Positions 11,101 to 36,588 of a DNA stretch of 36,588 nucleotides are shown here, in pieces (the stretch's first letter is position 1; every line of letters starts with the position of its first letter). The position numbers were made by a program, and so were the translations under genes. The notes beneath the pieces are model-generated. The model worked only from the letters and a program-made list of their open reading frames with translations. It was not told where the DNA came from and did no database searches. Origin of the DNA: Verrucomicrobiota bacterium (GTDB lineage Bacteria; Verrucomicrobiota; Verrucomicrobiia; Limisphaerales; UBA9464); assembly GCA_017309115.1 (NCBI GenBank), contig JAFLEF010000063.1, positions 1 to 36,588 on the forward strand, given 5' to 3'.

Positions 11101-12068
11101 TGGTGCTGACCAGCCCCGCCAACCACCCAATCTATTACACCCTCGACGGCACGGATCCCCGCCGATCCGGCACCGCCACCGGGAACGAAATCGCCGCCAA
11201 CGCCCAGCTCTACACCGGACCCATCGTGGTTCAGGACAATGTTCGCATCGTGGCCCGTTCCCGGAATCCGAACCACACCGCCCTCACCGGCCCCAATAAT
11301 CCGCCACTGAAGAGTATCTGGTCCGGTCCTGTCGCGGAGACTTTCGTCGTCCATCCCATCCCGCTGCGCCTGACGGAAATCATGTACCATCCGACCGGGG
11401 ACGGGGCGGCGAGCGAGTTTTTGGACGAAAACTTCGAGTTCATCGAACTACACAACACCAGTTCGGAGACGCTGGACCTGACCGGCTTCCAACTCACCGG
11501 CGTGATCGAGTTCGACTTTGCGGCCACCAATGCGGTGCGGACGATTGCTCCCGGCGGACGCTTGCTCCTGGTGGAGAACGAAGCGGCATTTGCGCTGCGG
11601 TACCCGGGCGTGGGCCCGGTGGCGGGGCGTTACCGGGACCGTCTGGAGAATGGATCCGGTCGGCTGGCCCTGTTCGGACGGCTGAAGGAGCCCATTTTCG
11701 ACTTCCGTTACCAAGAGACCTGGGAACCGACCACCGACGGCGGCGGACCGTCTCTGGTGCTGCGGGAGGAAAACTCCGGGGTGCTGAATCCCGCTGATCC
11801 GACCAGCTGGCGTCCCAGCAGCCGGCCGCTGGGTTCCCCGGGGATTGCCGATCCCGCCGCGCTGGTGTTGGTCCCCCAACTGGTCAACGACGCCTTCCAG
11901 CTCAGCTTCAAAGGTGAGCCCGGAAAAACCTACGTGCTCCAGCAACTGTCCGCGTTGACCAGCGGTTGGCAGCCCGCCGATTCCAAAGTCGCCGCCGCCG
12001 ATGGGGCGGTGACCTTCAACATCCTGCCGGTCTCCAATCTGCGGCTCTTCCGCGTCCTTCTGCCTTAG
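8199..12068 (+). CDS. Secreted CotH-kinase / lamin-tail-domain exoprotein
   Basis: The 1289-aa protein has a signal peptide (about 1-24, ending SVGA-D) when started at the ATG at 8199; an adjacent ATG at 8202 is equally possible. An N-terminal beta-sandwich of about 170 residues has the ligand-binding look of VTLQVLSDDGFVAWINGQEV. Then come an Ig-like segment, a lamin-tail domain from about residue 303 (VLLNEFMADN, DWIELYN), and a chitobiase-type segment (YTTDGSLPT). The CotH kinase-like domain covers about 530-870, with HGIYVLEEKI and the acidic GPLWDFDRA near 826. A second chitobiase-type segment (YYTLDGTDP) and a second lamin-tail domain (LTEIMYHP, EFIELHN, about 1056 on) follow. CotH proteins phosphorylate surface proteins in spore formers; the role in this lineage is not established. 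The architecture is typical of verrucomicrobial surface proteins. Confidence 0.9.
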   Translation: MMSLLRSPALGALLALVTSTSVGADDLTFIPAGDSWRYFKGTEAPSEGLSEWRETEFNDSGWLTGAEPFFYGEPLLGTSLDDMLGGYTSVYLRKEFDVASAANLSEVTLQVLSDDGFVAWINGQEVARFNVPDGDLFAGSTANGALSEPLSFEAYPINQPGQILRNGRNVLAIHAFNTSLSGSSDFVLSASLDGVIDNTPPTVVRILPTPGAVVRSLSSFEVQFSRPVVGLEAADLLVAGSPATGVTEVSPGQFLFTFPTVTSGNVTLAFRSNHGITDLAVPPHPFAGGEWSYTVDPSAPAPGVLLNEFMADNERTLRDEDGDESDWIELYNSSTATVNLTGWWLTDDLAVPKKWKFPALSLPANSFLVVFASGKNRTDNSQLLHTNFRLSNNAGGSVSLADDSGQTVSSLTNYPAQFDDISYGRAPGAPNLIGYFPTPTPGKANSAYGPGFAPPVEFSATSRTYQGTLTLTLTTTNANAVVRYTTDGSLPTALSPQYTTPLVLSNAVQVRALATQPNLLPGPVRSETFIPLTDPVAAFTSDLPVMVIHHFDRGRPSANTDTFAHIQIYEPDTNGVTSLTNAPTLTSRATIAARGSSTEGYGKVSMKLEFQDELGFGRALGPLGLPEDPDWVLYAPNNFEPILVHNPFAHQLSREIGRYSPRTRFVEVYFAQRGLGPIPSANYHGIYVLEEKIKLDQNRVDEPRLYPGQNSLPEVSGGYLMKIDRPDPGDSGFFAANQWCLYVSPKEEEMVLPDRDGQRNYLQSYMDQFGNALYGEDYRNPATGYRAHIDVPSWIDHHLLNVLTFNVDALRLSAYFYKRREGKLHFGPLWDFDRALYSTDGRDSNPRIWRSNSQDMGTDFFNYTWWDRLFTDPDFYQQYIDRYQELRRGPFSGTNLWRLLDDLTGQVLKAQPRELARWGVTPRGGGYSGEIRFLKNWLTNRVDFMDDQFVLPPTFAEPGGPVAAGHTVVLTSPANHPIYYTLDGTDPRRSGTATGNEIAANAQLYTGPIVVQDNVRIVARSRNPNHTALTGPNNPPLKSIWSGPVAETFVVHPIPLRLTEIMYHPTGDGAASEFLDENFEFIELHNTSSETLDLTGFQLTGVIEFDFAATNAVRTIAPGGRLLLVENEAAFALRYPGVGPVAGRYRDRLENGSGRLALFGRLKEPIFDFRYQETWEPTTDGGGPSLVLREENSGVLNPADPTSWRPSSRPLGSPGIADPAALVLVPQLVNDAFQLSFKGEPGKTYVLQQLSALTSGWQPADSKVAAADGAVTFNILPVSNLRLFRVLLP

Positions 12069-19994: not shown

Positions 19995-22900
19995 TCAGTT
20001 GCAGTTCACCACGCAGCCCGGATTGATCGGCGAGAGATCGCAATAGTTGGGGAGCGCTCCCGACACGGCTTTGTACACCTCGGCACTACTGGGTCCACCC
20101 TGACCGTCAATCGCCGCCTCCACGCTATTTGCCACAAAGGACCACAGTCCGTACACATCGGCCCCGAGATCACACAACGCCGCAATCTCGGACACCTTCG
20201 AGAGAAAGTTCAGAATGGCGTATTCCGTCGCGGTGACGGTCCCCGAGGGATCGCGGAACCGAATGGGACGATTGGCGGCATAACGATACAGATTGGAATC
20301 CCGGGCGGCGAAGCCCAAGGGGTCCTCGCTCAAGAATCGGCCGAGATCCGGATCATACCACCGGGCCCGGAAATAGATGAGACCGGTAGCCCAGTCCGCC
20401 TCCCGGGCAGCAAAGCCGAACCGTCCCGCCAACTCGGGTCGGGGGCCGGTCGCACTTAGCCGATTACCAAACGAGTCGAACTCATAGCTCGCCACGACCG
20501 TCCCGGCGTCGTCGAGGAGTTCCCGCAACGTGCCCACTTGGTCCAGCAGCGGGAAGAAGTACCCCTCATCGCGGCGCCAAATCGTCCACAGTTCATCCGG
20601 TTTGTCCCCGTAGCAGTATCGGGCCACGGGATCGGTCTCCGTTCCCACGAAGTCCACCACTGGATTCTCTTCCGCGAAATAGGTCCACGTGACGGTTCCA
20701 TCCTGAATCACTGCGATACGCCGATCCCGCAGGTCATAGCGATACTCCGCAACCGGGAGCAACGGCCCCTTCCCCACCGAATGCCAAACCCGGGTCAGAC
20801 GATTTCGGTGATCATACTCGTAAACCCAGTCCTCGGCTTCGCTGAACTTTCGAACCCGATTCCCTTCCCCATCGTATTCGTAATTCCAGTCGCCCGCCCG
20901 CGTCACCCGATTCGCCCGATCAAGGGTCCCCGAGGCGTGTCGATGACTGCTCAGCCGGTTTCCGTTGGCGTCATACGTGTAGGATTCCAAGGCCACCCCT
21001 TCCCGCGTCACACCGGTCAATTGTCCCGCACCATCGTAAGTCAACTCGTCGCGGACACCGCGGGACTGCCGCGCCAGAATCTCCCCGCTGGGATCGCGAG
21101 TGAAGACAAACTCTCCCCCCATCGCCTCGTTGGTTCCGCGCAAGTGCTCGAACGAATTGATCCATCCCCGTGGATCCAGGTCTCCATAGACCGTACTGCC
21201 GATCAAACGTTGCGGAGCCGACAGACGGCGTCGGTCAATCCGAGTCCGTTCGCCCCGCGCATTGAGGGTAAAACCGAATTGGTAGGAGCCATTGGGACCT
21301 CCGAACTGAATCGCTTGGATGTGACCATTCCGGTTCCGGGAGAAGGTCGTGGATTGACCGAGGAACTGGACCGTCTCGACCCGTCCCAGCTCATCGCGCC
21401 CGAGGGACACCAGCCGGACAGGAAGTCCTGGATAGGTGACCCGTTCCTGAACCACCCGGTCAGTCTCTCGATGATACGAGACCAAGATGACTGCTTCGGG
21501 GGAATTCAGTTCCGTGGTACGGCCCGTTGGATCGTAGGCCAGGGAATTCGTGACGACGACGGCGTCCGTGATCGGATCATGCCAGCGCTCCGCCACCATC
21601 CGGTTTTGGACATCATACTCGAAGGTCCGTTTGCGTCCGTTACGGTCCACCGTCTCGATTCGATTCCCCGCGGCGTCGTAGCGATGTCGCCGGCTGAGTC
21701 CGAAGGGATCGGTTTCCACCACCACCCGACCCAGCGCGTCCCGTTCAAATACAAATCGATTTGTTAAGGGGTCCACCACCGCCGTTCGATGGCCCAGGAC
21801 ATCATACTCGAACTGGGTGACCGAACCATTGGCGGCCTCAATCCGGGTGAGTTGAGCCTGGGCATTGTGGGCAAACCGCCGCGTACGACCGCTCTGATCG
21901 GTGTGGGATGCCACCGTGGCCGGACCCTCGGTGGCGTACGTGAACTGCACCATCCCTCCCCGGGGATCCACCTGTCGAAGCAATCGTCCCGCGACATCAT
22001 AAACGAACTCGTTGGTCGCTCCCGTGGGATCAATGATCTTTTTCAGCCAACCCCGCGAGGTGTATTCGAAGCGCTGGCTCGCGCCTCCCGGGAGCACAAT
22101 CTGAGTGGGCCGACGTACCGGTTGATCGTACTCGAAGCGATACACGTCTCCGGAGGGATCCGTGAATGAGGAAATCAATCCGTGGGCGGCATAGCCCAGT
22201 TCGTAGGTTCCCGAAGGAGCCACCACCTTGGTTAGTCGCCCCGCCAAATCGTAGGTCCGCGTGTCGCCCAATCCGGTCGGGAGCGATAGTCGGCTGAGGC
22301 GATTCGCGGCATCATAGGTCCAGGTGGTGGCCCGACGGTTTCCCGGGCGAAGTTCCGTCAACTGGTTCCCCCGATCATCGTAGGTGTACTGCGTTCGGTT
22401 ACCGCGAGGATCGGTCCACGAAGTTTCCCGCTGAGGATGGCGAGCATCGCCATAGACCCGGAGGGTAACGCCACCGAGCGGATCTACTTCCCGCGTCACA
22501 TTGCCCCTGGCGTCGTAGGTGATCTCCGTCCGATGGCCCAAGGCATCAATCGTAGTGCCGGTGAACGAACCCGGGTCCCACGATTGCTGGGTGCGTACGC
22601 CATTGGCCTCCGTGACCGCTATGACCCGACCGGCCGCATCGTATTCCATCTGTCGAGTAGGCCCATTACCCGGATCCTGAATTCGCTCGAGGAAATGCGG
22701 TCGAACACTGGAATAATGGAAGGTTCCACGGGTTCCCGACGCATGTCGTATTCCCACAAGATCCCCTTGCCCGTCGTAGGTGTAGTTGAGCACTACCCCC
22801 TCCGGCCCTCGGATTTCCGTAATCCGCCCCACGGAATCCCGCACCAGTTCCAGTCGGGGACCCAGGGAATGCTGGATGACGGTCGGCGAGAAGGTCACCC

Positions 22901-25868
22901 GATTACCGCTGCTGTCCTGAATCTCCTGCAGTCCCGCCTCCTGCTGATACGTGTATCGGGTACCGCGACTGTCGGTAAGCCGATACGTGTCCGGATTGTA
23001 CGGCAGTCGAATGAAGAACAGCGCGGCTTCTCCGGTATCGGACAACGTGAGAAACGACTGATCCCCTTCCGGCACGGAGAGCGTGTACTCATCCTGACCC
23101 GGATCCGGTTCGAAAACCACCCGCCAAGCGGCCCCCAAGAGTGAAGCTTGTCCCAACTGCGGACGGAACGTGAATCCCAGCCGCCGACCATCCGGCGCAT
23201 TCAAATACACCCGAGTACCCACCCGGAAGGGGGTCGGAACCAGCCCACCACCGCGATTCGGAATGGTCTCCCGCACGTCGGCATCCTGAAGTTGGAGAGA
23301 CCAACCGTATCCGAAGTCCCCCACCCGATCGGCGCGCAGGGAATCGTAAGTGCGCCGGACGGTGATTGGGATACCCGCCAGAGGCAGCTCGAGGTCAGTG
23401 AATTCCACCGCGAAATTCCCGAGTTTGACGCCCCCCGCTACATGCACCAGCAAAGGCTGACTCCAACCCAGACCATTTCGATTCCAGGCATTGACCCGAA
23501 TCACATAGCTGTCGTTGGCGAGCAGCGTGGGATCGAAGCGCGCCAACAGGCCATTCGTGACCCCATTGGTCCCCTCATTCAGCCGAATCCACTTCGGCCC
23601 GGACGCACTGAGATGTTGGAGATTGACGTCGCTGGCCGGGGCGTACTCCACCGACCAGTCCCGCAATTCCTGACGACTGCTGATGCTGCCCCGAATCTCA
23701 GTGATGTGCTCAATTCGGGAATCGGGTGCGGGTGCGGTCAACTCGATGGTCGGCCGCAGATCGGCCTCCTCCACCCGTACGCCTACTACAAAACCCAATC
23801 GTGCCGTGGCTCCCCCTTCCACAGTGAACCGAAGCAGATATCCACCGGCCGGAAGGGTGCTCGCCGGGAATCGACCCAAGAGCCCGCTGGTCACCGGTCC
23901 CGATCCACTCGCCAGCAAAACGTAGTCTGGATCCGCATCTCCCAGGGCCTCGGGATTAACCTGCTCCACCGGGGCATAGTGCACCTGCCACAGACCTAAT
24001 GGCAGCGAACCGCTGATCAAACTGCCCACGAGGTCCGTGTCGGCATTCAAGATCTGGCCGGCTACCGGAGAACTAATCCGAATGACCGGAGCTCCTTCAG
24101 CCGTGGGCTCTCCAATTCCGAGTCCGGAGAGATCGGGCAACGTTCCATCCGCTTCCGCCACCAGAATGGGCAGAACGGTGGAGGCGGTTTGCCCAGTTGT
24201 GTCGATCACTTCCGCCTGAAGTTCGAAGATTCCGGAGCTCGGAGGCGTCACTCGAAATGTTCCCTGCGGCGTCACCACCACGGGCCGGCCACCCGCACTC
24301 GCCGTCAACGAGGCCACGCCAAGATCATCGCTCGCGGTGACCTGTGCTTCGAGTTCCGCACCGACTCGGGGCGATCCCGGCTGATACGACAGAAATACCC
24401 TCGGCGGCCGGTCCACCCCCGCCACCCCAAAATCCAGATTGGTGATCGATTGACCGCCCTCGAGCACGACGTCGTAGTGGGAACTGAGGCGGGGCCGATA
24501 ATGCAGGGCTTCGAACCCAATCAGATCAAACCCTGGAGAAACTCCTTTGTTGTCCCTTGCCACCAGCTTCACAAAGTACACCGGTCCCGAGATGCCGGCG
24601 GCGGCAAAGTCCACGGTCAGATCCGAATTCTCAGTGATCTGCCGGGCCAGTTGCAGGCGGTCCGGCGTGCTCCCCACGTACACGTCCGCCGTCTCGTTGC
24701 CCGATTGATTCAAGGTGAAGAGCGTCAGGTCCGGACCCGGCCCATCGAAGAGTTCCTCCGCAGTAAACTCCACTGTCACTGCGCTGTTCGACGAGACGGT
24801 CATAAAGTCCACATCCGAATACGTACCGATCGGCGCCGCGACCGGGGACGGGGGTGGCGGTCCCAGAATGATTTCTGGACTCACGGATTCCGGCTGGACG
24901 CCCAGCAGCAGCGTTCGCGGTCCCGGAACGGCGTTGCGCCCATACGGCCAGGGAATCGGACCGGTTCCCGCATCCTCCAGGCGAGCAATCCGGTCGGGAT
25001 ACCCATCGGGCGAGACCAGCGGCAAGAGAGAAGGAAAAACCTGGAGCCAACCCAAGCGCCGTTCCAGACACACTCGATAACTGCCCGGGTCCAGTTCCTC
25101 GAACTGATAACGCCCTTCGGAAGTGGTGGCCACAGACGGCTCCAGCGGCCCCCATTCCCCATTCCGGTCCAAGTCCAGGAAGACCCACCAGTTTCCAGCC
25201 CCGGGATGATCCCGCGTCTCGGGATCTCCGTCTTCATCCCAGACGACCCACCCTTCCAGACGGCCCCGGCCCGTCACAGAAGCGAAGCACGGACTGGTCT
25301 GAAGCCGCACCACTTCATCCCAGTCCGACAGCCCATCGCGGTCCGTGTCCACCAACGTCGGATCCGAACACAGCAGCACCACTTCTTCGAAATCCAACAG
25401 GCCGTCCTGGTCGGCATCCCCATGCTCCGGAGTGTGCAAACGGTAGAAGCGCAGACCGTCCGCGGGATCGACCGCGAGCGTCGCCTGACCGGAGAAGGAC
25501 GGGGGCAGATTCGAAACGGCCTCCCACTGGCTGAGGTCCAAACTCGACTGCAGATTCGGAATGACCCCTACCGGAAAGGTCAGTTGAAGCGTTCCCGGTT
25601 CACCCATCATGACGGTGAGCTGCGGAAACGACGCCGCATCCCGGGGATCGGTGCCAAATTCCCACTCCTCCTGGCTGGTGAACGAGTCTCCGTCCGGATC
25701 GAAGACCAGTTCCCAGCTCTGGAGCTGGTGCGAGCGCAACCAACGCTCGGTGGGGTCCTGAGCCAGGCCGACCCTGAGGTTGAATCCCAGGAAGGCGAGT
25801 GCGCCAAGCCAGTACAGCCACCAGCGACGTGGCTGCTGTGGATCGGGAACAGGGAGTGTCGCTTTCAT
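19995..25868 (-). CDS. Giant secreted RHS/YD-repeat protein with variable C-terminal tip
   Basis: The 1957-aa protein starts with a positively charged N-terminus and a hydrophobic export segment (about 15-36). Calcium-binding, thrombospondin-3-like repeats follow (DPDGDSFTSQEEW; DADQDGLLDFEE; DTDRDGLSDWDE). Then an SdrD-B-like segment (DLDRNGEWGPLEP, GRYQFEELDPGSYRVCLE) and Ig-like or cadherin-like stretches precede a long region of YD repeats (about 950-1800; YDAAGRV, YDARGN, YDDRGN and many more). The RHS core motif is ARWYDPDLGRFLSEDPLGF through YRYAANRPIRFRDPSG. RHS shells can enclose a C-terminal toxin. After DPSG only about 78 residues remain, ending CVVNCN, and I do not recognise them as a known toxin. 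No immunity gene follows. It could be an adhesin/shell protein or an orphan polymorphic-toxin relative. Confidence 0.92.
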   Translation of the reverse strand: MKATLPVPDPQQPRRWWLYWLGALAFLGFNLRVGLAQDPTERWLRSHQLQSWELVFDPDGDSFTSQEEWEFGTDPRDAASFPQLTVMMGEPGTLQLTFPVGVIPNLQSSLDLSQWEAVSNLPPSFSGQATLAVDPADGLRFYRLHTPEHGDADQDGLLDFEEVVLLCSDPTLVDTDRDGLSDWDEVVRLQTSPCFASVTGRGRLEGWVVWDEDGDPETRDHPGAGNWWVFLDLDRNGEWGPLEPSVATTSEGRYQFEELDPGSYRVCLERRLGWLQVFPSLLPLVSPDGYPDRIARLEDAGTGPIPWPYGRNAVPGPRTLLLGVQPESVSPEIILGPPPPSPVAAPIGTYSDVDFMTVSSNSAVTVEFTAEELFDGPGPDLTLFTLNQSGNETADVYVGSTPDRLQLARQITENSDLTVDFAAAGISGPVYFVKLVARDNKGVSPGFDLIGFEALHYRPRLSSHYDVVLEGGQSITNLDFGVAGVDRPPRVFLSYQPGSPRVGAELEAQVTASDDLGVASLTASAGGRPVVVTPQGTFRVTPPSSGIFELQAEVIDTTGQTASTVLPILVAEADGTLPDLSGLGIGEPTAEGAPVIRISSPVAGQILNADTDLVGSLISGSLPLGLWQVHYAPVEQVNPEALGDADPDYVLLASGSGPVTSGLLGRFPASTLPAGGYLLRFTVEGGATARLGFVVGVRVEEADLRPTIELTAPAPDSRIEHITEIRGSISSRQELRDWSVEYAPASDVNLQHLSASGPKWIRLNEGTNGVTNGLLARFDPTLLANDSYVIRVNAWNRNGLGWSQPLLVHVAGGVKLGNFAVEFTDLELPLAGIPITVRRTYDSLRADRVGDFGYGWSLQLQDADVRETIPNRGGGLVPTPFRVGTRVYLNAPDGRRLGFTFRPQLGQASLLGAAWRVVFEPDPGQDEYTLSVPEGDQSFLTLSDTGEAALFFIRLPYNPDTYRLTDSRGTRYTYQQEAGLQEIQDSSGNRVTFSPTVIQHSLGPRLELVRDSVGRITEIRGPEGVVLNYTYDGQGDLVGIRHASGTRGTFHYSSVRPHFLERIQDPGNGPTRQMEYDAAGRVIAVTEANGVRTQQSWDPGSFTGTTIDALGHRTEITYDARGNVTREVDPLGGVTLRVYGDARHPQRETSWTDPRGNRTQYTYDDRGNQLTELRPGNRRATTWTYDAANRLSRLSLPTGLGDTRTYDLAGRLTKVVAPSGTYELGYAAHGLISSFTDPSGDVYRFEYDQPVRRPTQIVLPGGASQRFEYTSRGWLKKIIDPTGATNEFVYDVAGRLLRQVDPRGGMVQFTYATEGPATVASHTDQSGRTRRFAHNAQAQLTRIEAANGSVTQFEYDVLGHRTAVVDPLTNRFVFERDALGRVVVETDPFGLSRRHRYDAAGNRIETVDRNGRKRTFEYDVQNRMVAERWHDPITDAVVVTNSLAYDPTGRTTELNSPEAVILVSYHRETDRVVQERVTYPGLPVRLVSLGRDELGRVETVQFLGQSTTFSRNRNGHIQAIQFGGPNGSYQFGFTLNARGERTRIDRRRLSAPQRLIGSTVYGDLDPRGWINSFEHLRGTNEAMGGEFVFTRDPSGEILARQSRGVRDELTYDGAGQLTGVTREGVALESYTYDANGNRLSSHRHASGTLDRANRVTRAGDWNYEYDGEGNRVRKFSEAEDWVYEYDHRNRLTRVWHSVGKGPLLPVAEYRYDLRDRRIAVIQDGTVTWTYFAEENPVVDFVGTETDPVARYCYGDKPDELWTIWRRDEGYFFPLLDQVGTLRELLDDAGTVVASYEFDSFGNRLSATGPRPELAGRFGFAAREADWATGLIYFRARWYDPDLGRFLSEDPLGFAARDSNLYRYAANRPIRFRDPSGTVTATEYAILNFLSKVSEIAALCDLGADVYGLWSFVANSVEAAIDGQGGPSSAEVYKAVSGALPNYCDLSPINPGCVVNCN

Positions 25869-29786: not shown

Positions 29787-29921
29787 AAACCTCAGCGCCT
29801 GACCAACGACGCTTTTCGAACGGCTGCTTCCTGTCCCGGGAAACAACTGTCCGAAACCGGATGTCTCGAGCCTGGCAAGAGAGTGCGTGCAGCCGTCTGC
29901 GGCGGTTGGTTAGCCTGCGCC

Positions 29922-32900
29922 ATGCCTTCCCGGTGGTGGACTTCCCTTCTGGCCAGTCTCGCCTGCTGGCTTTGTCCAGCTGCCGAGACCATCCGCCCAC
30001 CCGTCCACCTGTTGGTACCCGGCTTCACCGTGCAGGAACTCCCGGTGACGCTCAGCAATCAGAACAACCTCCGCTTCGCGCCCGACGGTACCCTGACTTC
30101 GCTCGGCTACGACGGCCGGATTTGGCGTCTGCGGGACACCAACGGTGACGGCCTGGAAGACACGGCGGAACCCATCTGGGACCAACCCACCCTCAGCGTC
30201 CCGTTGGGCATGGCCTGGAGCACGGCAGGACTTTATGTGTCGTCCAAAGGCAAAGTCTCCCTGCTCCGGGATACCAACGCCGATGGCCGTGCGGATACCG
30301 AGGAGGTTATTGCGTCGGATTGGCCGGCCACGGATGTGGCTTCCGGCGGTGTGGACGCCACCGCCGTCACGCTGGATCCGGAGGGCAACCTGTACTTTGG
30401 CCTGCTGGTCGCCGATTACTCCAACCCCTACCGCCTCCGCCCACGGCGGGACCTGAAGGCGGCCGAAATCGACTGGCTCAAACAGGTCGGTCGCTGGAAG
30501 GAGCCCGTTGGTCCCGATGCCGCCAACGACACCTTCAGCCTCTACGACCTCCACTCCCGGCGCGGCACTATTCAGAAGTTCAACCCACGAACGAAGACCC
30601 TGGAGACCGTAGCCACCGGCCTGCGGGTGCCGGTGGCCCTGGCCTTCAATCGCCAGGGCGATCTGTTCAACACGGATCAGGAAGGCGAAACCTGGCTTCC
30701 CCACGGCAATCCTCTCGATGAACTCAACCACATCATTCCGGGCCGCAATTATGGCTTCCCGCCGCGCCATGAAACGTGGCTGCCCGACCTCTCCAGCGAA
30801 CCGCCCATCGTCGCGTTTGGTCCGCAGCATCAGAGCACCTGCGGATTGGTGTTCAACGAACCACGCTTGAAGCCCGACATCCGAAAAGCGAAGGCCGATG
30901 TTCCCCTCCCCGCCTTCGCCGCTCAGGGCTTGTTCGGTCCCGAGTGGTGGGAGGGCGACGCCTTCGTGGCCGGCGAATCGCGCGGCAAGATCTGGCGGGT
31001 GCGGCTGGTAAAAACACCCCACGGCTATGTCGGCCAAAGCCACCTCATCGCCCGACTCAATCTGCTGACGCTGGACCTGGCGATCTCCCCTCAGGGCGAT
31101 CTCTACGTGTGTTGCCACAGCGGGTCGCCGGATTGGGGAACCGGCCCCCAGGGCGACGGAAGAATTTTCCGGATCCGCTATACCGATCCCCAGGCGCCCC
31201 AACCCGTAGCCATCCGAGCCGTGGGCAAGGACCTCGTGCAAATTGATTTCGATCGACCCGTGGACCCGACGGTCACCAATGGGCTCGCGGGCGGTTCAAT
31301 TCGCTTCGGAGCCTACGTCAGCGCGGGCGACGAACTGGAAACGCTCAAGCCTCCCTATGCGGTCGTCGACCAACAGGCTCACGCGCCGGTGGGGCAACTC
31401 CCGGTGCTCCTGGCCGGGATACGCGACTGGGACGATTCTCCACCGCAAACGCTGATTCTACAGACCGTCCTACCTCCCGTGCTGGGGACGTATGCCCTGA
31501 CCCTCCCGAGTGTTAAGGCGCTCGGATCGACCAACGCCCCAAGCCGAGTTGACCTCGACTATGATCTTTCGGGGGCGGAGTTGTGGACCCTCCGAAAATC
31601 ATGGCTGGCACGTTCTCCCAAATTCCTGGTGCCCATCCTGGAGAAACTGCCGGAATCCTGGGAACTCAACACCTCCAGCGGTTGGTTTGGAACTCTGCCT
31701 CATCCCGAATTGGAAACCACCCGAAGCTACTTGGGTCCGTTTGCGGACATCATCGGGAGCACCAGTCCGGCGACCGAAGCGAGGGCCGATATGGTCACGA
31801 TCGAATTCCGACCCCGCCTACCGACTGACGCCCAGGAACTCATTATACGGGCCGAAGCCAAGTTCGAGGTGGACCGGGAGATCACCCACTTGGCGGAAGC
31901 AGTGAAGGTGGCGAATGGCAGTTGGGAAACAGCCATCCCGGCGGACCAATTGTCGCCTGAAAGCGCCCTCAAGGTCTCCGCCCAAAAAGGCGCGGCTCCC
32001 ATTCGCTTCACCTACGCCGATCGCTTCGGGGGCAGGGAGCGGCCCTTGGGGTTTGGGGATTCCCTATTGCCATTCGCGCCCACCAACTCGGCCTCCGCCG
32101 GTGCGGACAGCCGACCTTCCCCCAAGCCGCAGGGCGATTGGGAACACGGTCGCGAGTTGTTCCAGAGCCCCACGCTGAACTGCGCGAAGTGCCACCGAAT
32201 CCGCGGCGACGGTGGCCTCGCCGGACCCGACCTGAGCAACCTGATCCACCGCGACGCCCGCAGCGTCGAACGCGACATTCGCGAACCCAACGCCGCCCTA
32301 CATCCCGACTACGTGGCCTATGTTGCCGAGTTGAAGAATGACGGTTCCCACACCGGCTTCATTCGTTCGCACGAGGACGATTCCCTCCGTCTCGTTGACG
32401 TCGACGGCCAGGACACGGTCATTCCTCGGGCCCAACTCGCGACCCTTCGACCCACTAGCCAGAGCCTCATGCCCACCGGACTGCTGGATGCGCTCCCGCC
32501 TAACGACGTGCGCGACCTCTTGACCTTTCTGTTGTGGGAACCGCCGGTGCGGACCCGAGCGGAAGCCGAACCCGCGCGGCCGACCTCCTTGGCGCGGAAC
32601 GAAGCGGGGCAGTCCAAAGCGCTCCGAATCGTCCTGATCGCCTCCAAGCAGGACCATGGACCCGGCCAGCATGATTACCCGCGCTGGCAGGAAAAGTGGC
32701 TGCGTCTCCTGTCGCAGGCCGCGACGAATGCGGTGGTCGAAAAGGCGTGGGAATGGCCGACCACCGATCAGTTCGCCGCAGCCGATGTACTGGTATTCTA
32801 TTTCTGGAACCATGATTGGTCGCCCGCGCGTTACGCCCAACTCGACGCTTATCAGCGACGCGGCGGTGGCGTGGTCATCCTGCACTCCGCCTGCATCGCC

Positions 32901-33311
32901 GATCGCGACGCCGAGCAACTCGCAGAACGCATTGGCCTGTCCGCGCAACCGGACAAGGTCGGCTACCGCCACATGCCCTTCGACCTGACCATGGTGGCGA
33001 GGAAGCATCCGCTCCTCCAGAACCTACCCGAGACCCTGCCGTTTCTGGATGAACCCTACTGGCCCCTGATCGGCGATCCCGCGCGGGTCACGGTGCTGGC
33101 CACGGGCCGCGTGGACGACACGGACCGTCCATTGATTTGGACCTTTGAGCGGGGCCAGGGCCGGGTGTTCGGCAGCATTCTCGGCCACTACTTCTGGACG
33201 CTGGATGATCCGCTCTACCGCCTGCTGGTGCTGCGCGGAGTCGCCTGGGCCGGCGGCGCGGAGCTCAACCGACTGACCGACGCTGCCCTGCTGGAAGCAC
33301 TGGTCCGATAA
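29922..33311 (+). CDS. Secreted beta-propeller / PVC-type haem / ThuA-like fusion protein
   Basis: The ATG at 29922 opens a signal peptide (MPSRWWTSLLASLACWLCPA), preferred to the ATG 39 bp upstream. The 1129-aa protein has an N-terminal PVC-type dehydrogenase/NHL-like beta-propeller (NNLRFAPDGTLTSLGYDGRI, LRDTNGDG, SVPLGMAW; about 30-430) resembling sorbosone/glucose dehydrogenase-related proteins. A PVC-type cytochrome c segment has CAKCH at 754-758 and GGLAGPDLSNLIHRD. A ThuA-like (trehalose-utilisation) class-I-glutaminase-like domain covers about 900-1120 (LRIVLIASKQDHGPGQHDY, GGGVVILHSACI, PLIWTFERGQGRVFGSILGHYFWT). Such fusions in PVC bacteria are thought to act in extracytoplasmic sugar catabolism; the reaction is not established. 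It diverges from the LacI/GH9 operon and shares its control region. Confidence 0.93.
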   Translation: MPSRWWTSLLASLACWLCPAAETIRPPVHLLVPGFTVQELPVTLSNQNNLRFAPDGTLTSLGYDGRIWRLRDTNGDGLEDTAEPIWDQPTLSVPLGMAWSTAGLYVSSKGKVSLLRDTNADGRADTEEVIASDWPATDVASGGVDATAVTLDPEGNLYFGLLVADYSNPYRLRPRRDLKAAEIDWLKQVGRWKEPVGPDAANDTFSLYDLHSRRGTIQKFNPRTKTLETVATGLRVPVALAFNRQGDLFNTDQEGETWLPHGNPLDELNHIIPGRNYGFPPRHETWLPDLSSEPPIVAFGPQHQSTCGLVFNEPRLKPDIRKAKADVPLPAFAAQGLFGPEWWEGDAFVAGESRGKIWRVRLVKTPHGYVGQSHLIARLNLLTLDLAISPQGDLYVCCHSGSPDWGTGPQGDGRIFRIRYTDPQAPQPVAIRAVGKDLVQIDFDRPVDPTVTNGLAGGSIRFGAYVSAGDELETLKPPYAVVDQQAHAPVGQLPVLLAGIRDWDDSPPQTLILQTVLPPVLGTYALTLPSVKALGSTNAPSRVDLDYDLSGAELWTLRKSWLARSPKFLVPILEKLPESWELNTSSGWFGTLPHPELETTRSYLGPFADIIGSTSPATEARADMVTIEFRPRLPTDAQELIIRAEAKFEVDREITHLAEAVKVANGSWETAIPADQLSPESALKVSAQKGAAPIRFTYADRFGGRERPLGFGDSLLPFAPTNSASAGADSRPSPKPQGDWEHGRELFQSPTLNCAKCHRIRGDGGLAGPDLSNLIHRDARSVERDIREPNAALHPDYVAYVAELKNDGSHTGFIRSHEDDSLRLVDVDGQDTVIPRAQLATLRPTSQSLMPTGLLDALPPNDVRDLLTFLLWEPPVRTRAEAEPARPTSLARNEAGQSKALRIVLIASKQDHGPGQHDYPRWQEKWLRLLSQAATNAVVEKAWEWPTTDQFAAADVLVFYFWNHDWSPARYAQLDAYQRRGGGVVILHSACIADRDAEQLAERIGLSAQPDKVGYRHMPFDLTMVARKHPLLQNLPETLPFLDEPYWPLIGDPARVTVLATGRVDDTDRPLIWTFERGQGRVFGSILGHYFWTLDDPLYRLLVLRGVAWAGGAELNRLTDAALLEALVR

Positions 33312-33477: not shown

Positions 33478-33807
33478 TCAGTTTCCGGTTCGTTCATAAG
33501 GGAGGGGTGCGAAATTCGCCGAGCGCTCCGGCTCACCGACGCCAAGCCCATGATGTCCGATTGCCAACCGAGGCGCGATCGTCGGGTTCACTGCGTCACG
33601 CCGGACTGAACTCGCGCAGAAACTGCGCAGCCGGACATGATGGCGCCTCCCAATGTGCCTTGACTGCAATGGGAAACAGAATGTCGAACCGACATCTATC
33701 GTCGAGACCCCGCAAATGCTCCCGCACCCCGCGAAAGGCAGTCTGACTTCAGGATCTCGGTTATCATCCGGGACTTCGATTTCAGCGATGAATTGCTCTT
33801 GGGTCAT
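33478..33807 (-). CDS. Doubtful ORF at the distal end of the cassette array
   Basis: A 109-residue frame starts MTQEQFIAEIEVPDDNRDPE and begins inside the degenerate R' core of attC-like site D. The first half looks protein-like. The second half is arginine-rich and runs through a hairpin that is probably a decayed attC site, so the true gene may end earlier or be damaged. No family is recognised. It may be a relic of the oldest cassette in the array. Confidence 0.35.
   Translation of the reverse strand: MTQEQFIAEIEVPDDNRDPEVRLPFAGCGSICGVSTIDVGSTFCFPLQSRHIGRRHHVRLRSFCASSVRRDAVNPTIAPRLAIGHHGLGVGEPERSANFAPLPYERTGN
33534..33655 (-). other. Possible relic attC site E
   Basis: Inverted arms at 33548-33559 and 33632-33643 match at 11 of 12 positions. 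On the minus strand a GCTTGGCGT stretch is shared with the R'-proximal part of site A. The GTT core of a working attC is not seen (GTCGGTG instead). The boundaries are rough. Confidence 0.3.
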
Positions 33808-33931
33808 GCAGCGTCAGAGCTCACCGACCGTCGACGGGACCTGACGCCGGCAGCGAATCCTGCGTCGGATGAAAAGGGGCGGTCGAAGTCAGACCGGGAA
33901 GCGGCAGTTTGTGTGCGGCAATTTGTTCGGC
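33806..33931 (-). other. Degenerate attC-like site D
   Basis: The 126-bp site is homologous to site B: both share a central stretch around GACGC-GG-TTCGCTGCC, and the R'-proximal segments GGTCGGTGA match. The R'' core is GCCGAAC. At R', where B has GTTAGGC, D has GCTGCAT, which lacks the GTT needed for recombination, and the two arms no longer pair well. This is probably an inactivated site. The reading frame of the preceding ORF continues into it. Confidence 0.55.
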
Positions 33932-34255
33932 CCCGGCACTGTCATCCTCTCGCCGTGCATATACAAATCCGTCCAATGGATCCAGCTCGCAAAGCCGCGT
34001 GCCGGAATGCAAGCACTCCTCCTCCGCTGACCGAATTTCATCGTTGCCCGAGGTGTTCGCCAAAATCTCCGTCATGACGCAGGCGGCCCTCTCGCGATCC
34101 TCCTGAGTCGGCTCGCGATCCAGGTAAATCCTTACCACAAGCGCACGTGACTCCGAAAAGCTGACAGCGATAGCGCGAATGGCCGGATAGATTTCACCAA
34201 GCAAAGCTCGCTGAAACCACAGTCGAAGCCAGCCTGGCAGTGCTCCAGAGCTCAT
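33821..34255 (-). CDS. Cassette-borne protein of unknown function (ORF of cassette D)
   Basis: This 144-aa frame opens MSSGALPGWLRLWFQRALLG. Its middle is conserved-looking: SESRALVVRIYLDREPTQED, then CVMTEILANTSG, EEECLH, DGFVYARRE. It resembles a family of small acidic proteins of unknown role that I have seen only as hypothetical proteins; an immunity-like role is possible but unproven. The ATG lies 38 bp after the R' core of attC C, a normal cassette spacing. Residues from about 110 on are encoded by attC D, so the native protein may originally have ended there. Confidence 0.65.
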   Translation of the reverse strand: MSSGALPGWLRLWFQRALLGEIYPAIRAIAVSFSESRALVVRIYLDREPTQEDRERAACVMTEILANTSGNDEIRSAEEECLHSGTRLCELDPLDGFVYARREDDSAGAEQIAAHKLPLPGLTSTAPFHPTQDSLPASGPVDGR

Positions 34256-34293
34256 GCTTGTGTCCAGCGGCCCAATAGAAACGAGTGTCTCAG

Positions 34294-34386
34294 GTCCAAC
34301 GAAGGAATTGACCGACGCGGGCGGTCAGTGGCGTCCGAATTGGAAGGATTCGCGGCCCGCCCGCGTTCGGTCCAGTGATGTTAGGC
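34294..34386 (-). other. attC recombination site C of the cassette array
   Basis: The 93-bp site on the minus strand has R'' GCCTAAC, an exact RYYYAAC, and R' GTTGGAC, an exact GTTRRRY. The inner arms (34310-34324 and 34357-34372) pair over 15 bases with a single unpaired T (plus-strand view) in one arm only, the extrahelical-base signature of attC. The stop codon of the adjacent ORF lies inside R''. Confidence 0.88.
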
Positions 34387-34710
34387 GACGGTTGTCCGTA
34401 AATACTCATCAATGCAACGTCTGATAATCTGCTCAACTTCATCGTAAGGCATCCAGCCTGCGTTTGGACCATGACCATATGACTTGCCGTAGCTGCCGCT
34501 CCGATAAAAGCCCTGCTCCGGTGAACAAATATCTACCGGGTCTGTATCAGGACTCGTCGCAAGTGAAAAGCCCCACTCGTCGTGCTTTGCTCGAAAATAA
34601 AATGAACAACCTCGCACTGCACCCTCGGCCTGAACAGGACAGTGGCCATAGATACGGCCCGAAAACTCCAACTCGGTATCTTGTAGCTGCCGGTCTGGCT
34701 CGATGTTCAT
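34381..34710 (-). CDS. Cassette-borne protein of unknown function (ORF of cassette C)
   Basis: The 109-aa protein (MNIEPDRQLQDTELEFSGR at its start) was taken from the internal ATG at 34710, 15 bp after the R' core of attC B. The longer frame would begin inside attC B itself. Features: SFYFRAKHDEWGFSLAT, GPNAGWMPYDEVEQIIRRCIDEYL. No signal peptide or membrane segment is seen. The family is not recognised. The TAA stop lies within the R'' core GCCTAAC of attC C, which is typical of integron gene cassettes. Confidence 0.78.
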   Translation of the reverse strand: MNIEPDRQLQDTELEFSGRIYGHCPVQAEGAVRGCSFYFRAKHDEWGFSLATSPDTDPVDICSPEQGFYRSGSYGKSYGHGPNAGWMPYDEVEQIIRRCIDEYLRTTVA

Positions 34711-34724
34711 GACGTGCGCGAGTC

Positions 34725-34851
34725 GCCTAACGACGAAGATCACCGACCGCCGCCGGAACCGAGCACTGGCAGCGAACCCAGCGTCCAATGAATCGGCACG
34801 CCCGACCTCGAAACGGGGAGCGGCGGTTCGTGTGAAGCGATCGGATTATAC
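34725..34851 (-). other. attC recombination site B of the cassette array
   Basis: The 127-bp site has R' GTTAGGC (exact GTTRRRY) and a weaker R'' GTATAAT. The inner arms (34740-34753 and 34820-34835) give 14 paired bases, tcac/gtga, cg/cg and accgccgc/gcggcggt, interrupted by two single unpaired bases that both lie in the same arm. The stop codon of the preceding ORF lies in R''. Confidence 0.85.
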
Positions 34852-35241
34852 ATTTTTGGATAGCCACTGCTTCATCTGCCTCCGGCGCTCTCTGGGAAAG
34901 CACCAGAACTCATCTTCGATATCATCTGGAGATAACAAACGCGTCGAATCCCATCTCCCATCTTTCACAGAAATCTTGGCATAGATAAGCCCATCACACG
35001 CTTCGCAATCCGCGTAGATGAGATAACTCCCATCTGGATGCATTGCCGACTCCAAACACTCCACCCTACTACAAGTCATGTCCTCCTCGGACCAGTCGGT
35101 GTCGACGGGGGAGATCTTGCCCTGTTTCCAATGGTAAAGCATGCAAGGGCCGTCCTTGCCCTGCCAAACGGGCGGCAGCACTCGCCCACACCGAGGGCAA
35201 GTCGGCGATGGATCGGGACAATAGTGATCAAAGAATCCCAT
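34846..35241 (-). CDS. Cassette-borne zinc-ribbon-like protein of unknown function (ORF of cassette B)
   Basis: The 131-aa protein begins MGFFDHYCPDPSPTCPRCGR. Cysteines at 8, 15 and 18, and a later CEAC pair (DCEACDG), suggest a small zinc-binding fold. Aspartate-rich loops (SPDDIEDEF) and a basic C-terminal tail (RERRRQMKQWLSK) follow. No known family is recognised. The start codon lies 3 bp after the R' core of attC A, leaving little room for its own ribosome binding site, so translation may depend on upstream sequence. The stop lies inside attC B. Confidence 0.82.
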   Translation of the reverse strand: MGFFDHYCPDPSPTCPRCGRVLPPVWQGKDGPCMLYHWKQGKISPVDTDWSEEDMTCSRVECLESAMHPDGSYLIYADCEACDGLIYAKISVKDGRWDSTRLLSPDDIEDEFWCFPRERRRQMKQWLSKNV

Positions 35242-35243
35242 TT

Positions 35244-35369
35244 GTATAACGCCAAGCTGAGCGACTGCCGCCGGAAACGCAACGTCGAGCGTGAACTGCG
35301 CGTCCGAATTGCCTCCCGGCGTTGAGCGGAGAGGCAGGGCGGCAGTTCGTCTCCAGCGTCTTGTTCGCC
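35244..35369 (-). other. attC recombination site A of the cassette array
   Basis: The 126-bp site has R' GTTATAC and R'' GGCGAAC. The inner arms (35257-35272 and 35338-35356) pair over 16 bases: ctg/cag, ag/ct, cga/tcg, ctgccgcc/ggcggcag. Three single unpaired bases all fall in one arm. The central part shares AATTCGGACGC with site C, which suggests related cassette origins. Confidence 0.87.
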
Positions 35370-35391
35370 TTTGGTCGGCAGTGTTGATCGC

Positions 35392-35721
35392 TCATGAGTC
35401 TGTTTTGGAAGTGAGATGAGTGCCAACGAGAGAAGTACCATCTGGCAGACCACCACACGACTGTCCTGTCCAACGCCAGAGATTGACAATGGGAGTCTCT
35501 ATAGGTGGCTCAAACTCCGCCTCGGGGACAAGTCCTGCTGTTCGATAGAGAACGTTTGTCGTGCGAATCTGAGCTGTGATGAAGCCCTCGTCGAGTCGCC
35601 GAACGTCAACAATCCGAACCTCTCGTTTCACATCCATCGCCACAAACCGTGTGATCGTCCGTCCGACGCGATAGCGACGTTTGCGAAACCAATGCCGAAT
35701 GGCCTGTAGCATTATGCCCAT
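35392..35721 (-). CDS. Cassette-borne protein of unknown function (ORF of cassette A)
   Basis: The 109-aa protein may start at the ATG at 35721 or at the second ATG at 35712 (MLQAIRHWFRKRRYRVGR). It is basic at the N-terminus and then forms a short beta-rich domain (KREVRIVDVRRLDEGFITAQ, TPIVNLWRWTGQ). No signal peptide is visible and I recognise no family. It lies between attC F (25 bp before the start) and attC A (22 bp after the stop), on the same strand as the other cassette ORFs. Confidence 0.7.
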   Translation of the reverse strand: MGIMLQAIRHWFRKRRYRVGRTITRFVAMDVKREVRIVDVRRLDEGFITAQIRTTNVLYRTAGLVPEAEFEPPIETPIVNLWRWTGQSCGGLPDGTSLVGTHLTSKTDS

Positions 35722-35745
35722 GTTTCACAAGACGCGCCGCAATCA

Positions 35746-35838
35746 GACGAACGTCGCTGCTCAGTGACGCGCCGCCAAGCGTGCCCAGAATGGTATCGAG
35801 GCGCAATCGGCGCGTTCACTGGAGCAGTCTGGTTCGGC
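35746..35838 (-). other. attC recombination site F of the cassette array
   Basis: The 93-bp site is the clearest of the set. R'' is GCCGAAC and R' is GTTCGTC, 6 of 7 positions complementary. The arms 35757-35773 and 35809-35827 pair perfectly over 17 bases: ctgct/agcag, cagtga/tcactg, cgcgcc/ggcgcg. Exactly two single unpaired bases interrupt the stem, both in the arm next to R''. This is the standard attC design. Confidence 0.9.
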
Positions 35839-35863: not shown

Positions 35864-36328
35864 TCATGACGGACGATTTTGTGACCAGTCCTCCTGCATC
35901 GCTTTCATCGATACGACAGCAAACGCGGCAGAGGAGAGGCCTATAACCAGTTTCGGGATGATCGGAAAATGAGACTGCACGATATAGCTGAACACGGCAA
36001 AATTCCCGAATATCGCAACAGCCCAGCACCCGATTGCGACTCTATGTCCCCGACAGAACACCCGTAGCACAAGGAAAGGGAATCCAATAGCGGCCATACC
36101 CAGTGCGAAGATCGCGAACCCGAGTTGGACCTCCCAATAATCATTCTTCAACCGTCGCTCGGTTTCGATCATCCACGGAATCAGAATACAGGCAGCCGTA
36201 AAAATCAAAGCTCCCGGCACTGCCAAGCCGATCGCCACTCTGCGACTTACCGAACTATTGAGGACCGTCCGCGGCGAAGCGGGGGTTGGGGCGGGGTTCG
36301 TAACTGGGCTGCCTCTGACTGACTGCAT
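35864..36328 (-). CDS. Cassette-borne four-helix membrane protein of unknown function
   Basis: From the ATG at 36328 the frame encodes 154 residues. An N-terminal stretch of about 30 residues is proline/serine-rich, followed by four likely membrane helices: VAIGLAVPGALIFTAACILI, FAIFALGMAAIGFPFLVLRV, AVAIFGNFAVFSYIV, VIGLSSAAFAVVSM. A GTG at 36238 just before the first helix is an alternative start. It would leave about 118 bp for an attachment site and promoters before the divergent gene at 36356. The family is not recognised. The stop lies 26 bp before attC F, so this would be the first visible cassette. Confidence 0.68.
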   Translation of the reverse strand: MQSVRGSPVTNPAPTPASPRTVLNSSVSRRVAIGLAVPGALIFTAACILIPWMIETERRLKNDYWEVQLGFAIFALGMAAIGFPFLVLRVFCRGHRVAIGCWAVAIFGNFAVFSYIVQSHFPIIPKLVIGLSSAAFAVVSMKAMQEDWSQNRPS

Positions 36329-36355
36329 GGGCGGAGCGTATAGGCTGGGCGGTTC
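36239..36355. promoter_or_regulatory. Possible attI/promoter region between the array and the divergent gene
   Basis: If the first cassette ORF starts at GTG 36238, this stretch is non-coding. On the minus strand it contains GTTCGGT (36255-36249), a core like the R' of attC F, 10 bp before that GTG. In integrons the primary site attI and the cassette promoter lie exactly between intI and the first cassette. This is a positional argument only. Confidence 0.25.
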
Positions 36356-36588
36356 ATGAAAAGCACCAAGTCCTATACCATTCATCCCAAGTACCTCAAA
36401 AACGCCCAGGCTCGGCGCCAAGCCCAGAGTCGGGATTTCGCGGCGACCCCCACGCCCCCAACAGGGGCTTCCCCAGGTTCCACGGCCTCCACCGTCCGAA
36501 CCACTCCGCGGGACTTCTCCAATCCCATCGATTACCAGCATCCCTACGAGTCCATGGGCCGGTTCGCTCAGGCGCTGGCGCTGCGCTA
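36356..36588 (+). CDS. 5' part of a divergent gene leaving the window; possible tyrosine recombinase
   Basis: The ATG at 36356 opens a frame that stays open to the window edge (77 residues). The first 50 are basic and then proline/threonine-rich and probably disordered (KSTKSYTIHPKYLKNAQ, AATPTPPTGASPGST). The last visible part, YQHPYESMGRFAQALALR, looks like the beginning of a helical domain such as the SAM-like N-terminus of tyrosine recombinases, but that is a weak resemblance. Its position, divergent from the first cassette, is where an integron integrase is expected. Without the catalytic domain (R-H-R-Y residues and the integron-specific insert) the identity stays open. Confidence 0.55.
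   Translation, partial: MKSTKSYTIHPKYLKNAQARRQAQSRDFAATPTPPTGASPGSTASTVRTTPRDFSNPIDYQHPYESMGRFAQALALR

Follow-up and report, generated by a model that had tools for sequence, protein, structure and literature searches.

The right-hand end of the window (the whole 36,588-nucleotide stretch analysed here, which is the complete contig C72 of genome G000, a 7.53-Mb assembly of 111 contigs with a completeness of 95.3 and a contamination of 3.69) very probably holds a cluster of attC sites lacking an integron integrase (CALIN) with five gene cassettes, bounded on its right by an IS91-type element that is probably targeted to attC, in a genome, probably verrucomicrobial, that carries many such clusters. 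An initial annotation of this DNA had proposed an integron-type array here, in which short genes alternate with four attC sites, and our results confirm that the array exists and support its reading as one of integron-type cassettes: covariance-model matches, one-sided bulges in the folded sites, pairing between the two ends of each cassette, and the presence elsewhere in the genome of an integron integrase (IntI) gene with an attI-like site all agree with it.

Sites were detected with a covariance model, R1, built from ten attC sites that lie beside the IntI gene on contig C3 of the same assembly; these ten were picked by eye, aligned, and given their stem by hand, the window sites were excluded from training, and the search set was the window plus C3 (45,544 bases). 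R1 recovered the four sites of the initial annotation at the coordinates it had given, all with E values of 3e-9 or less, and added a fifth, and all five lie on the minus strand. From the right, these are attC 1 (35746-35838; R'' GCCGAAC, R' GTTCGTC; 46.3 bits, E 1e-9), which has a close look-alike at 4430-4522 of C3; attC 2 (35244-35369; R'' GGCGAAC, R' GTTATAC; 67.9 bits, E 4e-15); attC 3 (34725-34851; R'' GTATAAT, R' GTTAGGC; 99.0 bits, E 7e-23); attC 4 (34294-34386; R'' GCCTAAC, R' GTTGGAC; 44.6 bits, E 3e-9); and a decayed attC 5 (33806-33931; 69.9 bits, E 1e-15), in which R'' (GCCGAAC) is intact and R' reads GCTGCAT. The runner-up matches in the window were the plus strands of two of these same sites (18.1 and 14.0 bits), and positions 11442-11516 gave 14.4 bits (E 0.1). 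Rfam at its gathering thresholds returned no match in the window, and ARAGORN found no tRNA there.

When the minus strand was folded as DNA and compared with shuffled sequences, attC 1 to 4 gave z-scores of -2.95, -2.80, -1.16, and -3.89, the stability of attC 3 as a whole being unremarkable. Their single-base bulges, counted by folding in the 5' and 3' arms, numbered 2/0, 3/0, 3/0, and 1/0, which is the pattern of one to three extrahelical bases confined to one arm that had been claimed for them; four of the five window sites are in fact imperfect hairpins of this kind, attC 5 (0/0) being the exception. Across 99 attC sites, the 5' arm held 158 such bulges, as against 27 for the 3' arm, a bias that its nominal probability overstates, as related sites are not independent; bulges were confined to the 5' arm in 54 sites and to the 3' arm in 8, and were present in both arms in 14 and in neither in 23. 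Strand choice by extrahelical bases is established for other attC sites in the accessible text of PMC2727003. With regard to the R' and R'' cores that the initial annotation had assigned to its four sites, three are intact in having an R'' that ends in AAC and an R' that begins with GTT, while that of attC 3 falls short, its R'' ending in AAT; as attC 5 is without GTT, both features are present in three of the five window sites. In a survey of 94 of the 99 sites (five partial ones were omitted), AAC was present in 82 and GTT in 76. Within each window site, R'' and R' are complementary at 6 of 7 bases in attC 1, and at 4, 4, 5, and 2 bases in attC 2 to 5, respectively.

Read on the minus strand from the right, gene 1 is followed by attC 1, gene 2 by attC 2, and so on to gene 5 and attC 5, and the cassette genes are all small and on that one strand. 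Gene 1 (35864-36238) encodes a hydrophobic protein of 124 amino acids from a GTG start that we chose, its frame being open up to 36586; gene 2 (35392-35721) encodes 109 amino acids, gene 3 (34846-35241) 131, gene 4 (34381-34710), whose start was also our choice, 109, and gene 5 (33821-34255), which reads into attC 5, 144. Two stop codons had been placed within R'' cores, and both are indeed there: that of gene 3 (34846-34848) lies inside the R'' box of attC 3, and that of gene 4 (34381-34383) inside that of attC 4. None of the cassette proteins scored above the Pfam cut-off or was matched in PADLOC; gene 1 was searched in a longer form in Pfam and as 35864-36265 in PADLOC, and gene 4 with three extra bases. 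The protein of gene 3, the only cassette protein searched in the 51 genomes of the family, was found in its own genome only.

Once a cassette is free, the R'' box of its attC site faces the core that, in the array, sits at the cassette's own start. Over 46 cassettes (spacing of 100-1500 bp between adjacent sites, and GTT in each of the two cores, with four window cassettes kept regardless), R'' matched the complement of that core at a mean of 6.5 of 7 bases, compared with 5.3 when the partner was the core of the same site and 5.4 when partners were shuffled, the highest of 2000 shuffles reaching 5.8. The own-start core paired better in 34 of these cassettes and equally well in 8; on C3, every one of the 7 cassettes counted matched at all 7 bases, and window cassettes 1 to 5 matched at 6, 6, 6, 7, and 5 bases. 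The ends of a given cassette match each other more closely than they match those next to them, as is the case in mobile cassettes, and these sites mark such mobile units.

No intI gene is present in the window, and the contig ends at 36588, so the region beyond is out of sight; as far as the contig shows, the array is a CALIN, which the accessible part of PMC9668308 defines as at least two attC sites less than 4 kb apart without an integrase. Five attC sites lie here within 2.0 kb, with no integrase on the contig and the right contig end open. A profile search of the genome placed its sole IntI over the cut-off on C3, where the protein scored 417 bits against TIGR02249 in the genome search and 415 in a protein scan (cut-off 265), and had as its best solved structure IntI4 (2A3V; E 5e-86, aligned over 44-363 through the IntI-specific insert); the TAG seen at this gene is its own stop codon. 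Together with this integrase, C3 carries an attI-like core and, running divergently, an array in which at least ten attC sites were counted. The 18-base attI-like word of C3 was found, among 29 loci searched, on C3, C10, C81, and C86, and was absent from both strands of the window, in a search where a different attI would be missed. On C10 (L170, position 2518), C81 (L150, 2974), and C86 (L151, 4413) the word stands without an over-cut-off intI, and these are probable relics of further integron platforms. Integrase-like gene fragments were also seen at 16046-16507 of L142 (C46), about 600 bp upstream of the first attC in the C46 array, and at 416-655 of L160 (C29).

Across the genome, R1 gave at least 116 matches at E≤1; those at E≤1e-3 number at least 107 and form 25 clusters distributed over 23 contigs, counts that are a lower bound given that 150 of 12,162 first-look candidates were scored. 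For ten of these clusters the distance to either contig end exceeds 3 kb; the other 15 are near an end, and some of the latter may be halves of one array. Within the genus, R1 hits at E≤0.01 were found in three of five genomes (111 in G000, 21 in G002, and 4 in G004). Sequence is also shared from array to array (C3 and C81, 627 bp at 94%; C68 and C75, 561 bp at 94%; C3 and C46 at 93%; C46 and C108 at 92%), and the stretches common to several arrays include attC sites. A cassette-bearing stretch of 490 bp is moreover duplicated at 99.8% within C46 (13960-14449 and 15315-15803), a sign of recent cassette duplication. The common site family and common cassettes argue for C3 and the window belonging to one genome, although they do not prove it.

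On its right, the array meets what appears by eye to be the 3' remnant of a sixth attC site (36249-36269, minus strand), cut by the IS91-type element; its R' core (36249-36255, GTTCGGT) is complementary to the R'' box of attC 1 at 6 of 7 positions, as is to be expected for the ends of one cassette. The element itself (36270-36588, plus strand) is present as its left end, truncated, followed by the first 77 codons of a recombinase gene (open reading frame 36356-36586) that is cut by the contig end. These 319 bp match C44 at 97.5% and C54 at 98.1%, and the product of the reading frame shares 95% identity with the beginning of a tyrosine recombinase encoded on C44, where the recombinase gene, broken by a serine-recombinase element, is followed by an IS91-type transposase frame. 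The possibility that the right-edge reading frame is the start of an intI gene was ruled out, as its close copy on C44 precedes that transposase. The serine-recombinase element of C44 (L140, 13149-15221) encodes a protein of 690 amino acids with Resolvase, Recombinase, HTH_17, and Zn_ribbon_recom domains and weak similarity to XisF. A complete relative of the IS91-type element, G002:C278, has a recombinase of 352 amino acids and a transposase of about 376. The transposase is known from relatives, the window ending before that gene, and in these it scored 307 and 305 bits against NF033538 (cut-off 125), with PF04986 and PF14319 also matched.

The positions of these elements in the family genomes point to the R'' box of attC sites as their target. 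The left-end word was found exactly at 9 places and with a one-base variant at 20, and 11 more one-mismatch places look unrelated, for a total of 40 places in 21 of the 51 genomes. An R1 attC match begins at the element's GTTCAAC in 7 of the 9 ends of the exact type (including three in this genome) and lies at the element in 7 of the 17 variant-type ends that have sequence beyond the end (one of the other three is at a contig end), so that 14 of the 26 element ends examined abut attC at R'', as against none of 9 controls, which were the loci available for 9 of the 11 unrelated places; the R1 E limits were 1e-7, 0.1, and 0.01 across these searches. In all 14, the first position of the model (R'') lies at the element, that is, the element points against the cassettes. 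Both junctions could be followed in five copies (C46, 1,633 bp; C20, 1,674 bp; G043, 2,657 bp; G008, 2,672 bp; G009, 2,664 bp), and joining the flanks across them restored an R'' core directly after a gene in all five, and by eye a full attC in four, G009 giving a half site only. The right junction reads ATG|TT followed by an R''-type core in six of six cases (the same five copies and C10), and the right end, consisting of GTTCAAC, a hairpin, and ATG, is kept in all seven aligned copies and is itself an attC-like hairpin. The copies thus lie between the G and the TT of a reversed R'' box, a placement that a second, divergent element on C46 shares by eye, although no R1 match was found there. 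From these positions, we infer that the IS91-type element is targeted to attC. In viral contigs, the left-end word gave 38 exact-match stretches, which by our own estimate is about the chance level for a 15-base word.

The recombinase of these elements appears to be an IntI-related tyrosine recombinase without the IntI-specific insert, below the cut-off for integron integrases. Its best NCBIfam model was in fact TIGR02249, at 145 bits in G002 and 170 in the second C46 element (cut-off 265); in the C46 element the profile matched over 4-179 and 240-313, leaving the stretch of the IntI insert unmatched, and for the G002 recombinase the best solved structure was again IntI4 (E 1e-28). In a tree of 36 rows, 14 Xer-type rows split with support of 100/99 from a group made of IntI, L062, and the element recombinases. 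Constraining IntI and the IS91-associated recombinases as one clade was rejected (p-AU 0.008), although the clade as named omitted L062, a Cyanobium row labelled Xer that falls among IntI. The rows were selected from those at hand, several IntI rows being partial; eight were dropped by name for short, empty, or odd frames, and L059 and L248 were without a usable frame. The same gene order, with a tyrosine recombinase gene directly before an IS91 transposase, is seen in L251 and L252, from Rhizobium and Mesorhizobium plasmids, whose ends follow a similar plan (GTTGGACTAA / TAGYCCAAC plus a hairpin). By eye, these two loci have long terminal hairpins and palindromic flanking sequence, and no attC at their ends, and they may target other hairpins. 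If two loci are a guide, the attC-like end may be a property of the element family as a whole, and attC as a target that of the branch described here.

As for how such an array might be built and broken, the IntI of C3 would act in trans on folded single-stranded attC sites, excising cassettes and reinserting them, and the window array is cut on its right by an IS91-type element that is probably drawn to attC, as the positions above suggest. The left end of the element is presumably its termination end, as in the usual reading of IS91; this end faces the array in each attC-linked copy seen, and therefore read-through from it would carry cassettes along, so that an element beside an array may help break and move it. 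Such an element is visible in five of the 25 clusters (C72, C44, C46, C54, and C20) and therefore cannot be the only source of cassette dispersal.

Other explanations were considered. A reading of the spacers as plain palindromic repeats between genes, or as terminators, is exceedingly improbable: they are GC-rich palindromes between small genes, as this would have it, but on C3 spacers of the same family lie beside a true IntI and an attI-like site, bulges are one-sided by 158 to 27, cassette ends match each other, and the stretches shared between arrays include the sites. A different proposal, unlikely in our judgement yet deserving attention, is that the array belongs to a complete integron of which just this end can be seen, with intI and attI past the IS91-type element and beyond the contig end. 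The contig does stop inside that element, and in G009 such an element occupies the first R'' core of attC type at a locus whose integrase frame exceeds the cut-off (277.7 bits, over positions 3-251 only of the 315 in the profile); on C10, furthermore, the other end of such an element is followed by a gene-sized stretch and then by the attI-like core. However, no over-cut-off intI lies beside that core on C10, and for 10 of the 25 clusters the contig runs on for more than 3 kb in either direction, the sole over-cut-off IntI being on C3; many clusters, therefore, do lack an integrase.

Similarly possible, if doubtful, is that the IS91-type element moves as a cassette, its right end being an attC and IntI inserting the element, inverted, into the GTT of R'' as a secondary site. 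The crossover of IntI falls at G|TT, and the junction of the element lies at that very point; its left end starts with TTGAAC and its right end has GTTCAAC plus a hairpin, so that a circle would restore a fully complementary R'' and R', and passive shuffling was considered for ISCR28 in the accessible text of PMC12772301. The left end, however, is conserved beyond what a cassette would need, including a GC hairpin, no inverted ordinary cassette in an R'' box was noticed (no search was aimed at this), and the two rhizobial elements have a similar end plan and no attC by eye. We regard as quite improbable, and offer as speculation, the bolder idea that these IS91-type elements are self-mobile kin of integrons, whose IntI-like recombinase and attC-like terminus insert into attC. 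Were it true, IntI and attC would have a common origin with a transposon whose recombination acts on folded single-stranded hairpins, and arrays would be scattered by the elements when rolling-circle transposition reads through their array-facing left end.

We acknowledge that several observations weigh against a five-cassette CALIN bounded by an attC-targeting element. The array has no integrase on its own contig, which ends about 320 bp beyond it, and might thus be part of an integron whose intI lies out of sight past the element; C3, where the integrase resides, is another and short contig (8,956 bp) in an assembly with 3.69% estimated contamination. R1 was trained on sites of the same genome and is no universal attC test, cores are imperfect in R'' of attC 3 (GTATAAT), R' of attC 2 (GTTATAC), and R' of attC 5 (GCTGCAT), attC 5 (folded as 33806-33926) gave a z-score of +0.62 and no arm pairs and does not fold as an attC, and the own-start core paired worse in 4 of the 46 cassettes. 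With regard to targeting, the window's own copy of the element is truncated and adjoins only an apparent half attC, and 12 of the 26 element ends had no R1 match. Two of these are of the exact type, on C54 (hairpin score p 0.012) and in G009 (a half site by eye), and ten of the 17 variant-type ends make up the rest. One of the 17, on G016, resembles plain coding sequence; by eye, one variant-type copy (G021:C16) encodes a similar recombinase start, and of ten ends looked at in this way most seem degraded. Among the 14 ends with a match, that of G008 is weak (E 0.08) and that of G002:C278 is shifted by one base.

The array resembles a CALIN in its attC sites less than 4 kb apart, its one-strand cassette genes, and the absence of an intI seen nearby, and differs in that about 25 clusters occur in one genome beside one IntI, and in that the contig end leaves the absence of intI non-final. 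Like a sedentary chromosomal integron, the genome has on C3 an IntI that passes the TIGR02249 cut-off, together with an attI-like core and ten or more attC sites in a divergent array; unlike one, it is of probable Verrucomicrobiota origin and its sites are spread over many loci, at least in this fragmented assembly. Mobile elements that settle on attC are on record: group IIC-attC introns insert at R'', opposite to cassette transcription (PMC7923331, accessible part), which is the same box and orientation as for the IS91-type copies here, although they are retroelements and the element described here is a DNA transposon with an IS91 transposase and a tyrosine recombinase. The IS1111-attC group (ISKpn4, ISPst6), insertion sequences that target one end of attC according to the accessible part of PMC11187229, likewise shares the target and differs in transposase family (DEDD, not IS91). 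For the IS91-like ISCR28 and its sul4 modules, the accessible text of PMC12772301 mentions, as data not shown, attC sites where the element's gene ends or immediately past it; insertion in the R'' box is not described there, and its authors weigh passive shuffling with cassettes. The Rhizobium and Mesorhizobium elements share with ours the gene order and similar ends but, by eye, not the attC. In the accessible portions of the open-licence literature, we found no report of IS91-type elements inserted in the R'' box, PMC12772301 being the nearest neighbour. What seems to be new, judging from sequence comparison, is the right-edge IS91-family element with an IntI-like recombinase, whose kin abut attC at R''. 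Such an element would be a further, unrelated family of mobile elements settled on attC, after IS1111 and the group IIC introns, and should its recombinase really be closely related to IntI and its end really function as an attC, hypotheses about how the integron system arose could be put to the test.

The source of the window, an uncultured bacterium, is probably a member of the Verrucomicrobiota, as the initial annotation had supposed, judging from IntI relatives only, with no independent taxonomic marker: the first five relatives listed (58-67% identity) are all metagenome-assembled genomes labelled Verrucomicrobia. On 16 loci of IntI relatives, R1 found attC matches in three (L051, L054, and L058), again all labelled Verrucomicrobia. 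The suggestion that an array in this lineage is notable has lost ground, as the phylum is named among those with integrons in the accessible part of a 2021 review (PMC8618304), and an IntI over the cut-off is present in 108 of 387 sampled genomes of the window's phylum, taken as Verrucomicrobiota, and in 80 of 198 genera. With this array, one more genome rich in cassettes is known from a phylum in which IntI proves common in the sample. Several of the sampled genomes have two to five IntI matches; three integrase genes over the cut-off were seen on one contig in G068, and five in G367.

To the left, the array is followed by a reading frame beyond the last attC (33478-33807, minus strand, 109 amino acids), which had no Pfam or PADLOC match and may be a further degraded cassette or no gene at all, and by the left chromosomal flank (29883-33311, plus strand), which encodes a protein of 1142 amino acids with ThuA, DUF7133, cytochrome c, and GSDH domains in Pfam. 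This protein has relatives within the family, and none of 11 loci with an orthologue (L220-L230) had an R1 attC match at E≤0.01, nine of these loci extending about 1.5 kb past the gene and two (L227 and L223) ending at or within 150 bp of it. Similarity by blastn was found in 9 of the 11 and never passes 33299, within the end of the gene. Conserved synteny of the cassette genes with non-attC spacers in relatives, which the initial annotation had named as the pattern that would speak against an array, was found neither at these 11 loci nor for the gene 3 protein, present in 1 of the 51 family genomes. The whole cluster may have been inserted at a secondary integrase site; R' of attC 5 is without the expected GTT, and the site is decayed. 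Farther to the left, a large RHS/YD-repeat protein of 1957 amino acids is encoded on the minus strand at 19995-25868.

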